64,000 nt of DNA from Eggerthellaceae bacterium (GCA_910575165.1 CAJTDS010000011.1:1-64000); one strand, 5' to 3'; numbered from the stretch's first letter, positions 3,745-55,159 are shown. Numbers and translations are program-made. The notes: generated by a model from the sequence alone, not told the origin.

Positions 3745-3819
3745 TGGTGCCCCCAACGAGAATCGAACTCGTGTCTCAGCCTTGAAAGGGCCGCGTCCTG
3801 ACCTCTAGACTATGGGGAC
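3745..3819 (-). tRNA. tRNA-Glu (anticodon TTC)
   Basis: The minus-strand transcript folds as a 75-base tRNA with an encoded CCA end. The acceptor GTCCCCA pairs with TGGGGGC, the anticodon loop reads CTTTCAA, and the T-arm contains GTTCGATTC. The TTC anticodon decodes GAA/GAG. Its wobble U34 is a classical target of Elp3-type modification, relevant to the elp3 locus at 52.5-55.2 kb. Confidence 0.95.
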
Positions 3820-10745: not shown

Positions 10746-10821
10746 GCGCCCATGGCTCAACGGATAGAGCATCAGACTTCTAATCTGACGGTTGCAGGTT
10801 CGAGTCCTGCTGGGCGCGCCA
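10746..10821 (+). tRNA. tRNA-Arg (anticodon TCT)
   Basis: This is a 76-base tRNA with acceptor GCGCCCA/TGGGCGC, discriminator G and an encoded CCA. The anticodon loop CTTCTAA gives TCT, reading AGA/AGG. It starts 10 bp after addA and has its own terminator. AGA is rare in this GC-rich coding sequence. Its U34 is another classical mcm5U site in eukaryotes. Confidence 0.95.
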
Positions 10822-41935: not shown

Positions 41936-42012
41936 TGGTCGGGACGACAGGATTCGAACCTGCGACATCCTGCTCCCAAAGCAGGCGCGCTACCAGGCTG
42001 CGCCACGTCCCG
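41936..42012 (-). tRNA. tRNA-Pro (anticodon TGG)
   Basis: This is a 77-base minus-strand tRNA with acceptor CGGGACG/CGTCCCG, discriminator A and encoded CCA. The anticodon loop TTTGGGA gives TGG. The T-arm has GTTCGAATC. Confidence 0.95.
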
Positions 42013-51192: not shown

Positions 51193-52497
51193 ATGGAAGC
51201 CTGCGGCGACACTTCCCGGGAATGGGCCCTCCCGCCTTGGGAGGGCAAGGCCATCGTGCTGCTGGATTTGGACGCGTTCTTCGCATCGGTCGAGCAGCTG
51301 GACCACCCGGGTTGGCGCGGCAAGCCCGTCATCGTGGGCGGCCGCCCCGAGGACCGCGGCGTGGTGTCGACGGCCTCCTACGAAGCCCGCGCCTTCGGCG
51401 TCCATAGCGCCATGGCCTCCTCGGTGGCCGCCTCCCTGTGCCCGCAGGCCATCTGGACCCAGGGGCGCCACCGGCGCTACAAGGAGGTATCGCGCCAGGT
51501 CATGGCAATCCTCTACGACGAGACGCCGCTCATCCAGCAAGTGAGCATCGACGAGGCCTTCGCCGACGTGAGCCCCACCAAGACCAACCGCGAGCATCCG
51601 GTGCTCGTGGCGCAGCGCATCCAGCGCCGGGTGGAGGAGCTGGGCGTCACCTGCTCCATCGGCATCGGCACCTCGAAGGCCGTGGCCAAGATCGCCTCGG
51701 AAACCCGAAAGCCCCGGGGGCTCACCGCGGTGTACCCGGGAACCGAGGCGTCCTTCCTGGCACCGCTGCCCGTGAAGGCGCTCTCGGGCATTGGGACGGC
51801 TTCTGAGCGGGCGCTTGCCAGCCGAGGCATTCGCACCCTGGGAGACCTCGCCAACGCCAGCGACAGCCTCTTGCAGCGCCTTCTCGGCAAGAACGGAGCC
51901 GTGATGAAGCGGCGGGCCATGGGGTTGGGCGACAGCGCCGTAGAGGAGCGCGAGCCGGTAAAGTCCATCTCAAACGAGCTGTCCTTCGCCGAGGACCTGA
52001 CCGGTCGCGGCGACCTGGAAGCCGCCGTGTCCACCATGGCCGCCAAGGTCGGCAGGAGGGCGCGCACCGCCGGGCTGAAGGGCATCACGCTGACACTGCG
52101 CCTGCGCTTCGGCGACAGGACGGTTCGCAGCGTGCAGCGAAAGCTCCCAGAGCCCAGCGACGACGACCTGTCGTGGAAGGGCATGCTCGGCGAGATGCTC
52201 GACGAACTGTGGGCCGAGGGGGTAAACGTGCGCCTCGTCGGCGTGGGGCTATCCGATTTTCGGGAGCCGGCACCCGCCCAGGCGACGCTGTTCGGCGGCC
52301 TGGATGACGACCAGGAGGCCCGCAGGGGCCAAAGCCGCCGCGAGCTGCTGGCGGCAACGGACTCGGTCCGCGCGCGCTTCGGAGACGCGGCCGTGCGCTT
52401 CGGCAGCGAGATCCGCACCTTGGAAGGGGAGCACTGCCATCGCCCGTCCGGCGACGACGCGGAAAGCCCGGGGCGCACCGGCGTGCGGAAGCCCTAG
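51193..52497 (+). CDS. dinB: DNA polymerase IV
   Basis: This 434-residue Y-family polymerase has an intact active site: LLDLDAFFASVE (Asp25) and SIDEAFAD (Asp120, Glu121). It also has STASYEARAFGVHSAM and IGIGTSKAVAKIASE. A clamp-binding motif QATLFGGL lies in the C-terminal region. It provides translesion synthesis and contrasts with the degenerate relative at 26.2 kb. It is 14 bp after hydA. Its TAG stop overlaps the stop of the convergent elp3. Confidence 0.94.
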   Translation: MEACGDTSREWALPPWEGKAIVLLDLDAFFASVEQLDHPGWRGKPVIVGGRPEDRGVVSTASYEARAFGVHSAMASSVAASLCPQAIWTQGRHRRYKEVSRQVMAILYDETPLIQQVSIDEAFADVSPTKTNREHPVLVAQRIQRRVEELGVTCSIGIGTSKAVAKIASETRKPRGLTAVYPGTEASFLAPLPVKALSGIGTASERALASRGIRTLGDLANASDSLLQRLLGKNGAVMKRRAMGLGDSAVEEREPVKSISNELSFAEDLTGRGDLEAAVSTMAAKVGRRARTAGLKGITLTLRLRFGDRTVRSVQRKLPEPSDDDLSWKGMLGEMLDELWAEGVNVRLVGVGLSDFREPAPAQATLFGGLDDDQEARRGQSRRELLAATDSVRARFGDAAVRFGSEIRTLEGEHCHRPSGDDAESPGRTGVRKP

Positions 52498-54323
52498 GGT
52501 TCGAGAGGGCGAACCTGGTACAGCCCCGCATCGGCGAAGCCGAGGGAGCGGTAGTAGGAACGCGTGCCCACGGCGCTTATCACGGCGATGCTGCCGTAGC
52601 CTTCCGAAGCCGCCAAGCCGCACGCGGCATCCACCAAGGCGGCTCCCAAACCGCGATGCTGGGCGCTCGTTCCCGCGCCGTGCAAGGGGGTGGAGCGGCC
52701 GTAGACGTGCAGCTCTCGGATCATCGCCTGGCACGGACGCGCCGGAATCGGCGGCCCGCAGGCGCCGGCGACCTTAGGCCAGGGAAGGGAGAGCCGCAGG
52801 AAGCCCGCGATGCGCCCGCACGCATCCACCCATTGCAGGAAATGCTCGCGGGAGACCGTCGTATCGTAGGCGACGTCGTCCAGCCGAAGCGTCTCCCAGT
52901 CGACGTCGCCCGAGGCCACCTCGCGCATGCGGACCTCCTCGATCTTCGCCCCTCGCGCCTGCGCCTTCTCGACCGCGCGCCGCTCCACCGCCTGCCTCAG
53001 GTTCGTCTTGCGGCTGCCCGCTTCTATGTCGTGGGCGGATATATCGCGGATCATGCGGGAAATGCGCAGGTAGGGCGGAGCAGCCAGCACCTCCTCGGAG
53101 AGCAGGTCCACGAGCGTGTCGTCGTCGTAGGGCTGCCAACGGCCGTCCTCGTACCAGTCGGTCAGGCGGGCGCTCCTCACCAGCACGCAGGGGTAGAGCT
53201 TGACCTCGTCGGGCCGGTAGCGGCCGGAATCCACCAGCCCCCTGAAGTCGTCCATGTCCCCCGCAGGGTCGGAAAGCGGCAGGTTCGCCATGAGGTGCAC
53301 GTGTATCTTGAATCCGAACAGCCGCAGCAGCTCGAAGCTGCGCTCGACGCTACCGTCGTCGAGCGACCGTCCGCAGCCGGCGCGAATCTGCGGCCGAAGC
53401 GTCTGCACGCCCATCTGAACCTTCGTGCACCCCAGCCTGCGCATCTCTGCCAGGCTCTCCGGCGTCACTGCATCGGGCCTTGTCTCCATCACCAAGCCGA
53501 CGCATCGACAGGCAGCCTCTTCGTTAGCCGAGAAAAGCGAGCGAATACTCGATTCAACCACTAACCTAGTCGCTGCTTGTTTATATACCATCGCTTCGTT
53601 ATCGCAGATAGAGAGTGCACTGTTATATGAGAGCAGTTTACGATTCACGCTGTCTTGCGTGCTATCTCGTATATACTTGCTTTCGCTAGTTTTATAGTAT
53701 GAATCAAGTGACTCGTAGATTTCCCAGCGGATGCGCTCCCGCTCTGCGGCCACCTCGGTTCCGAAATCGTTGAGCGCCTGGAACAAGCTACTGACGAACC
53801 ACTCGCGATACGGTTTCGGATAATCGGTCCACGATCCGCCCAAAACGATGAGCTCGACCTTGTCGGTGGGGTGCCCCATGTCGTCGAGCACCTGCAGGCG
53901 GCGGAGCACTTGCAGGTAGGGATCGAAGCGGCAGCGCAGCGCCCGCTGGCAGGCCGGCTCGTCGGACAGGTAGCTTTTGGGCATAGCGATGTCGGAGGGA
54001 CAGTACAGGCAGTCGCCGGCGCAGGGCCAGGGCTTCGTGAGCACGGTGACGGTAGTGACCCCCGAAGCGGTGCGCCGAGGCTTCGCCTGCAGCAGGGCGC
54101 AAAGGGCTCGGTCCTCGTCCTCGCTCGGCGCCCACGCCTCCCATCGCGGACTGCGCTGGCGTTTCTGCGCCAGGTAGTAGGGCATGAGCCGCCGCTTGGC
54201 AACCGAGCGCGAGCCGTCGCGCATCTCGCGGTTGCGGGTGCGCACCACCCGGTCCAGGAAAGCGCCGTCGACCGGCTCCCCGGCGCGCATCGCATCCAGC
54301 AACATATGTATAGCCTTGTCCAT
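52494..54323 (-). CDS. elp3: Bacterial Elp3: radical SAM/GNAT tRNA U34 carboxymethyl-type transferase
   Basis: This 609-residue protein has an N-terminal helical tRNA-contact region and then a radical SAM domain with Cys101, Cys105 and Cys108 in CAGDCLYCPSD. ELIVLGGSWTDYP, CVGLVMETRPD and MGVQTL are typical Elp3 blocks. A C-terminal GNAT acetyltransferase includes QHRGLGAALVDAA and YYRSLGF. Elp3 builds cm5U-type wobble uridines from acetyl-CoA. The start ATG 54323 is seven bases after TATAAT, apparently leaderless. Residues about 201-268 are encoded by an unusually AT-rich stretch. It is divergent from a Trm9-like methyltransferase. Confidence 0.9.
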   Translation of the reverse strand: MDKAIHMLLDAMRAGEPVDGAFLDRVVRTRNREMRDGSRSVAKRRLMPYYLAQKRQRSPRWEAWAPSEDEDRALCALLQAKPRRTASGVTTVTVLTKPWPCAGDCLYCPSDIAMPKSYLSDEPACQRALRCRFDPYLQVLRRLQVLDDMGHPTDKVELIVLGGSWTDYPKPYREWFVSSLFQALNDFGTEVAAERERIRWEIYESLDSYYKTSESKYIRDSTQDSVNRKLLSYNSALSICDNEAMVYKQAATRLVVESSIRSLFSANEEAACRCVGLVMETRPDAVTPESLAEMRRLGCTKVQMGVQTLRPQIRAGCGRSLDDGSVERSFELLRLFGFKIHVHLMANLPLSDPAGDMDDFRGLVDSGRYRPDEVKLYPCVLVRSARLTDWYEDGRWQPYDDDTLVDLLSEEVLAAPPYLRISRMIRDISAHDIEAGSRKTNLRQAVERRAVEKAQARGAKIEEVRMREVASGDVDWETLRLDDVAYDTTVSREHFLQWVDACGRIAGFLRLSLPWPKVAGACGPPIPARPCQAMIRELHVYGRSTPLHGAGTSAQHRGLGAALVDAACGLAASEGYGSIAVISAVGTRSYYRSLGFADAGLYQVRPLEP

Positions 54324-54330
54324 AAGCGCT

Positions 54331-54336
54331 ATTATA
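54331..54336 (-). promoter_or_regulatory. -10 box of a probable leaderless elp3 promoter
   Basis: On the minus strand a perfect TATAAT is followed by seven bases (AGCGCTT) and the elp3 ATG. No ribosome-binding site exists between them. The 47-bp gap to the divergent methyltransferase GTG must hold both promoters. Confidence 0.6.
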
Positions 54337-54370
54337 CGAGACCGCCGACCGACGAGAGAGGAAGTGGGCT

Positions 54371-55159
54371 GTGGACGAGCGGACAAGGCGCATACTCGAC
54401 GACCGGACGAGGGCGTTCTACCTCGCCTGCGCCGATTCGTTCTCCGAGACGCGCCAGGCCCCGTGGCCTGGATGGGAACCCGTGGCGCGGCGCCTTGCCG
54501 AGGCGACCCAAGACGGCAATCCCGTGCGGCTGCTGGACGTGGGCTGCGGGAATCTGCGCTTCGAGCGCTTCCTGCTCGACCGTGGCGTCGGCTTTCGGGC
54601 CCTTGCCCTCGACCGCTGCGAAGCGCTGGCCGTCGCAGGGCTGGCAGCCGACCCGAGGCTTTCCAGCTGCTGCCGCATCGGACCCTTCGACGCGCTTCGC
54701 GACGCCGATGTCCCGGGGGGTCGGCAGGCCTTCTCGGCGGCCGTGGCGTTCGCCCTGCTGCACCATATCCCCGGCCACGATGAGCGCATGGCGCTTCTTA
54801 AGTCCATGGCCTGCAGGCTGCAGGAGGGAGGGCTGCTGGCCCTTTCGCTGTGGGACCTCGACTCGGATGCGCGTCTGTCGCGCAAGGCCCGCCGCGACAC
54901 GGACAGGGCCTGCCGGGCCCTGGGGCTGGGCCCTCTCGACGAAGGGGACTTCGTGCTGGGCTGGCAGCACCGCGACGACGCCTTCCGCTACTGCCACAGC
55001 TTCTCCGGGGAGGAGGCCGATCGCATCGTCGGGCAGCTGAGCGGCGAGCTTCGCCTGGTCGAGCGCTACCGCAGCGACGGACCTTCGGGATGCGCCAACC
55101 GCTACCTGCTTTTCAACAAACGGGCATTGTCGTCGCCCAGCACCGAACAACCGCTATAA
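54371..55159 (+). CDS. Trm9/ALKBH8-like SAM-dependent methyltransferase, probable tRNA wobble methylase
   Basis: This 262-residue class I methyltransferase begins at GTG 54371 after GAAGTGGG. Its N terminus contains SFSETRQAPWPGW (23-35), resembling the FSxTRYKPWP segment that marks Trm9 and the ALKBH8 methyltransferase domain. Motif I is LLDVGCGN (54-61). AFALLHHIPGHDER occupies the post-motif II position (Trm9: VLHHL), GGLLALSLWD follows, and RYCHSFSGEEAD resembles the RYYH region. Trm9 methylates cm5U34 to mcm5U34 on Elp3 products. The divergent neighbour elp3, 47 bp away, supports that role. It could still act on another substrate. Confidence 0.7.
   Translation: MDERTRRILDDRTRAFYLACADSFSETRQAPWPGWEPVARRLAEATQDGNPVRLLDVGCGNLRFERFLLDRGVGFRALALDRCEALAVAGLAADPRLSSCCRIGPFDALRDADVPGGRQAFSAAVAFALLHHIPGHDERMALLKSMACRLQEGGLLALSLWDLDSDARLSRKARRDTDRACRALGLGPLDEGDFVLGWQHRDDAFRYCHSFSGEEADRIVGQLSGELRLVERYRSDGPSGCANRYLLFNKRALSSPSTEQPL

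Follow-up and report, generated by a model that had tools for sequence, protein, structure and literature searches.

Enzymes of the Elp3 family form 5-carboxymethyluridine at the wobble position of tRNA (cm5U34), by S-adenosylmethionine (SAM) radical chemistry and with acetyl-CoA. Elp1, 2 and 4-6 are, to our knowledge, not expected in bacteria, and no search for them was made here. A 64,000-nucleotide stretch of DNA from an Eggerthellaceae bacterium (GCA_910575165.1 CAJTDS010000011.1:1-64000), analysed as a whole and called here the window, carries an elp3 gene next to a divergent gene for a class I methyltransferase that resembles Trm9. The two genes are described here as a candidate bacterial pathway for wobble-uridine modification, and are compared with the systems already known.

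In the Trm9-Trm112/ALKBH8 system, Trm9 methylates the carboxylate of cm5U34 to give 5-methoxycarbonylmethyluridine (mcm5U34) (PMC5372719). In archaea Elp3 can act alone (PMC13315578; PMC7663514). The genes for Elp3 and a Trm9-family protein are clustered in Sulfolobus solfataricus, and a base similar to the 2-thiolated form, mcm5s2U, was proposed in Haloferax from its Elp3 and Trm9-family genes (PMC2584109). When compared by description, these archaea are similar to the window in that Elp3 alone is accompanied by a Trm9 homologue. However the host is bacterial here, and Trm112 is absent, whereas archaeal Trm9 is reported to act with Trm112 (PMC7694415).

Two bacterial systems should also be considered. 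MnmE/MnmG, which yield 5-carboxymethylaminomethyluridine (cmnm5U34), also act on C5 of the wobble uridine, and in similar tRNAs, but they are other enzymes with another chemistry, and are absent from the window genome and from nearly all of its class. CmoM, which forms the methyl ester (mcmo5U34) of uridine 5-oxyacetic acid (cmo5U34), is a bacterial wobble-uridine carboxyl methyltransferase of the same fold as the window protein, but its substrate comes from the Cmo pathway and not from Elp3. According to a 2017 review, the eukaryotic methyltransferases that depend on Trm112 have no similar genes that could be found in bacteria (PMC5372719). A 2020 nucleoside survey lists mcm5U only in archaea and eukaryotes (PMC7694415), and a review of the same year confines bacterial Elp3 to one clade, with products unknown (PMC7663514). 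A literature search of partial coverage gave no mention of Elp3 in this class, and an earlier mention is possible.

The gene pair and its Elp3 protein

The elp3 gene (positions 52494-54323, minus strand) encodes 609 amino acids (aa) with radical SAM and GNAT domains, a predicted tRNA-U34 cm5U synthase. The methyltransferase gene (54371-55159, plus strand) encodes 262 aa and is predicted to convert cm5U34 to mcm5U34. The divergent arrangement with a gap of 47 bp (54324-54370), described in an initial annotation of this DNA, is confirmed, as is its description of a full-length Elp3 with a radical SAM Cys triad and GNAT. The protein matches TIGR01211 over the full length with 399 bits (cut-off 350). 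Its best phmmer match is the Dehalococcoides Elp3 5l7j (4.9e-86), eukaryotic Elp3 chains are also matched, and it aligns with solved Elp3 structures of bacteria, archaea and eukaryotes. The radical SAM residues Cys101/105/108 are invariant in 38 aligned sequences, including that of Dehalococcoides. The C-terminal GNAT residues are kept, with Y590/Y591 invariant, as in the Elp3 of Dehalococcoides mccartyi (DmcElp3); PF00583 gives 20.5 bits on the C-terminus, just under its cut-off of 20.7. As judged from these comparisons the Elp3 encoded here is full length and intact, and it would make cm5U34. The D. mccartyi enzyme is likewise a stand-alone bacterial Elp3, but in comparison with it the window protein has an insert near residues 187-255 and is missing the linker cysteines.

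A patch of low guanine-plus-cytosine (GC) content is present in elp3 at 53500-53700 (codons about 205-262), within the insert, which is specific to the family. The GC fraction is about 0.45 in the patch and about 0.69 around it, with a third-position GC of 0.40 compared to 0.81 overall. Of the 25 split-box codons in elp3 that end in A (AAA, GAA, CAA, AGA, GGA and TTA were counted), 10 fall within the patch. This dip far exceeds that of the other elp3 genes examined. It could be a recombined patch or could represent codon-linked self-regulation.

Relatives indicate that elp3 starts at an ATG and not at the upstream TTG picked by the open reading frame listing; the methyltransferase starts at a GTG, on which the N-termini of relatives agree. 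A TATAAT-like word, read by eye only, is found on the minus strand of the 54324-54370 region, and a consensus scan of the same region revealed no sigma-70-type promoter.

Resemblance of the methyltransferase to Trm9

The methyltransferase belongs to the Pfam family Methyltransf_23 (class I). No specific family name for it was found in NCBIfam or Pfam, which supply generic methyltransferase labels only. All named relatives identified by sequence belong to the Coriobacteriia (Collinsella, Atopobium, Atopobiaceae), and the window is therefore assigned to this class. No relative on a plasmid was found. When 35 relatives were combined into a profile and searched against the PDB, the top match was Yarrowia Trm9 (5cm2) at 1e-8, and the second match reached 3.7e-5. 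A second profile, built from the distant branch that occurs in other lineages of the phylum, covers Trm9 nearly end to end (residues 25-222, 1.9e-20), and its next-ranked matches end near residue 150 and represent the Rossmann core only. Comparison of the class set with the distant one shows that the two are related (E = 3.4e-28).

The resemblance to Trm9 had initially been read from two short segments, residues 23-35 (SFSETRQAPWPGW) and an LLHHIP block at about residues 129-134. Both are present, and the profile searches bear the resemblance out. Among 46 relatives the TR..PW and HH motifs show little or no variation and thus are not due to chance. In a joint alignment with Yarrowia Trm9 the residues in common are T27, R28, W32, a CGN motif, D81, H131, W161, D193, W198, R206, Y207, H209 and N243. 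A yeast Trm9 query served only to bring up the 5cm2 sequence. Its R29, and its first His of the HH motif at position 115, match the published numbering (PMC5372719). The yeast mutants R29A, H115A, R241A, Y243A and N271A show reduced tRNA affinity and activity/kcat (PMC5372719), and four of these five key residues are kept: R29, H115, R241 and N271 of Saccharomyces cerevisiae Trm9 (ScTrm9) correspond to R28, H131, R206 and N243 of the window protein. H131, R206 and N243 are invariant in all 46 relatives, and R28 is found in 42 of the 43 that are aligned at that position.

The structure model of the methyltransferase has a mean predicted local distance difference test score (pLDDT) of 94 and a predicted template modeling score (pTM) of 0.90, and displays a class I fold with a lid over the active site. 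Features in common with Trm9-Trm112/ALKBH8 are the fold, TR..PW, HH, a lid motif of the (V/I)PW..RYYH type and a C-terminal Asn, together with the predicted place in the pathway, next after Elp3. In contrast, the C-terminus of the window family displays a conserved DG...N.Y and not DNW. From the alignments the methyltransferase is a divergent relative of Trm9. It is called Trm9-like, and is not filed as Trm9, because of its Trm112-free state and a change at the position of ScTrm9 Y243, both described below.

Linkage, co-occurrence and other wobble-uridine enzymes

Two overlapping samples were compared, one of 119 genomes of the class and the other of 60 genomes of the family, from 48 genera. 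Both genes are present in 49 genomes of the class sample, Elp3 alone in one, the methyltransferase alone in none, and neither in 69. In 48 of these 49 genomes the two genes share a contig and are no more than 4 kb apart; 46 of these pairs are divergent and two in tandem. The family sample has 50 genomes with both genes, two with the methyltransferase only (these are 84% and 75% complete), none with Elp3 only and eight with neither; by coordinates, 45 of the 50 pairs are linked, the exceptions being G004, G008, G014, G015 and G029. It should be noted that the Fisher tests of co-occurrence ignore relatedness. Within single genera the two genes are acquired or lost jointly (G108 versus G098/G119/G131, and G011 versus G055). 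Four neighbour genes of the window, including that of DegV, are missing in all 12 loci used for comparison, and 11 of these loci have both elp3 and the methyltransferase. The neighbours are not kept around the pair, and the linkage is therefore specific to these two genes. Their pairing is not chance.

The pair is also found beyond the class. In a phylum sample, six genomes from three other families have a distant full-length relative of the methyltransferase (26-30% identity), and elp3 adjoins it in all four loci where the contig could show elp3 (L113, L114, L115 and L117); the other two (L112 and L116) are on short contigs. Thus the pairing, which the initial annotation had proposed to follow across genomes, shows near-perfect co-occurrence that persists in distant lineages of the phylum.

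The lone class genome with Elp3 but without the methyltransferase (G145, locus L119) has its elp3 in a different neighbourhood, and G046 (contigs C6 and C4) carries a second, unlinked methyltransferase copy besides the one adjacent to elp3.

MnmG was found above the cut-off in none of the 60 family genomes and in one of the 119 class genomes, and MnmE in none of the 60 family genomes; control genomes gave the expected matches. MnmG fragments of about 28-45 bits are weak and were left uncounted. The window's own genome, with a completeness of 99.7%, is missing both MnmE and MnmG, and MnmG is absent from the six genomes of other lineages. The 2-thiolase MnmA is present in 21 of 21 genomes. Within the class sample a full MnmG is found in G122 only (730 bits). 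In addition, six near-complete genomes of 2.8-4.0 Mb (G003, G007, G027, G031, G041 and G053) have no Elp3, methyltransferase, MnmE or MnmG above the cut-off, and these may be without any known C5 modification of U34.

Proposed pathway, alternatives and meaning

In the proposed pathway Elp3, acting alone with SAM, an Fe-S cluster and acetyl-CoA, would carboxymethylate U34 at C5, and the Trm9-like enzyme would next transfer a methyl group from SAM to the carboxylate of cm5U34 in tRNA to form mcm5U34. MnmA, which is present, could thiolate position 2 of the base in tRNA-Glu, -Gln and -Lys, and mcm5s2U34 is probably the product in some tRNAs. The two enzymes would stand in for MnmE/MnmG and would work without Trm112. 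Because the pair is conserved, the active-site residues are in common and MnmE and MnmG are missing, the same two steps as those of Elp3/Trm9 are the best reading. That the two genes form such a minimal bacterial wobble-uridine pathway, with cm5U34 made by Elp3 and then methylated to mcm5U34, in place of MnmE/MnmG and with no Trm112, can be proposed with good confidence. A two-protein route to mcm5U34 was the central suggestion of the initial annotation. The best profile match among solved structures is Trm9, the pairing is conserved and MnmE/MnmG are missing, and the route is supported as a strong candidate, although not a demonstrated one.

Several observations weigh against this pathway. 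The similarity of the methyltransferase to Trm9 is remote, and the single sequence matches Yarrowia Trm9 with an E value of 0.011, which is weak. The position of ScTrm9 Y243 is occupied by Cys208 here, and in the 46 relatives by Cys in 43 and Ala in three; a Tyr is present at this position in the distant relative from L113. In eukaryotes and archaea Trm9 works together with Trm112, but Trm112 (PF03966) is absent from the window's own genome, and only weak short matches to it were found, in 6 of the 60 relatives. In a Foldseek search with the methyltransferase model 5cm2 ranks third (TM 0.77 on target), and in VIA-align METTL6 comes first (Z 22.1) and CmoM (8joz) aligns with a Z of 18.5. Trm9 is not distinguished by the modeled structure on its own, which many class I methyltransferases fit equally well or better.

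A different end product in the same Elp3 pathway should also be considered, either an ester intermediate that is amidated to 5-carbamoylmethyluridine (ncm5U) or another methyl ester derived from cm5U. Co-occurrence with Elp3 indicates a shared pathway and not the exact chemistry, and the altered Y243 position is in keeping with such a product. However the conserved Arg, His, Arg and Asn are the residues reported to position cm5U34 in Trm9, and among the window neighbours, the only genes tested, no third gene is kept beside the pair; a different product is thus unlikely. The methyltransferase might instead have its target elsewhere in tRNA or in a different molecule, and travel with elp3 only through shared regulation or inheritance. 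Its class I fold is common to many tRNA, small-molecule and protein methyltransferases, and 14 of the 35 family members weakly match the trans-aconitate 2-methyltransferase model. Joint gain and loss within one genus (that of G108, G098, G119 and G131), linkage held in two distant groups and agreement of the active-site residues with Trm9 all speak against another target, which is considered quite improbable.

Functional equivalence to CmoM, with cmo5U34 as substrate and mcmo5U34 as product, is suggested by the fact that CmoM is likewise a tRNA U34 carboxyl methyltransferase, and by its structural alignment to the model. But the partner gene here encodes Elp3, a maker of cm5U and not of cmo5U (CmoA and CmoB were not searched for), and the profile has Trm9 as its best match, with no CmoM among the matches to E = 1, which leaves this equivalence a very small probability. 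As every genome has many class I methyltransferases, an Elp3 gene could have an unrelated one as its neighbour by chance. The probability of this is negligible given the linkage of 48 of 49 pairs, the co-occurrence in 49 of 50 genomes, the several gene arrangements and the loss of the other neighbours; chance adjacency is ruled out by the linkage, the counts and the neighbour control.

The initial annotation also pointed to two tRNA genes in the window, tRNA-Glu(UUC) at 3745-3819 on the minus strand and tRNA-Arg(UCU) at 10746-10821 on the plus strand. Both are detected by ARAGORN, and by analogy with yeast their products may be substrates of the pathway. They are, however, ordinary tRNAs and add no evidence for the link between the two enzymes. 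A tRNA-Pro(UGG) gene is found at 41936.

Extended from the window to its relatives, the proposal is that Elp3 and a Trm112-independent, Trm9-like route to mcm5(s2)U34 are used instead of MnmE/MnmG by a large class of bacteria and by further lineages within its phylum, and this is held with moderate confidence. If true, a widespread bacterial lineage that includes gut genera such as Collinsella would make a eukaryote-type wobble ester with two proteins, and mcm5U, until now ascribed to eukaryotes and archaea, would also be bacterial. The pathway would account for the life of these bacteria without MnmE/MnmG and would provide a minimal model for Elongator/Trm9 biology. It would also pose the question of the origin of eukaryotic Trm9.

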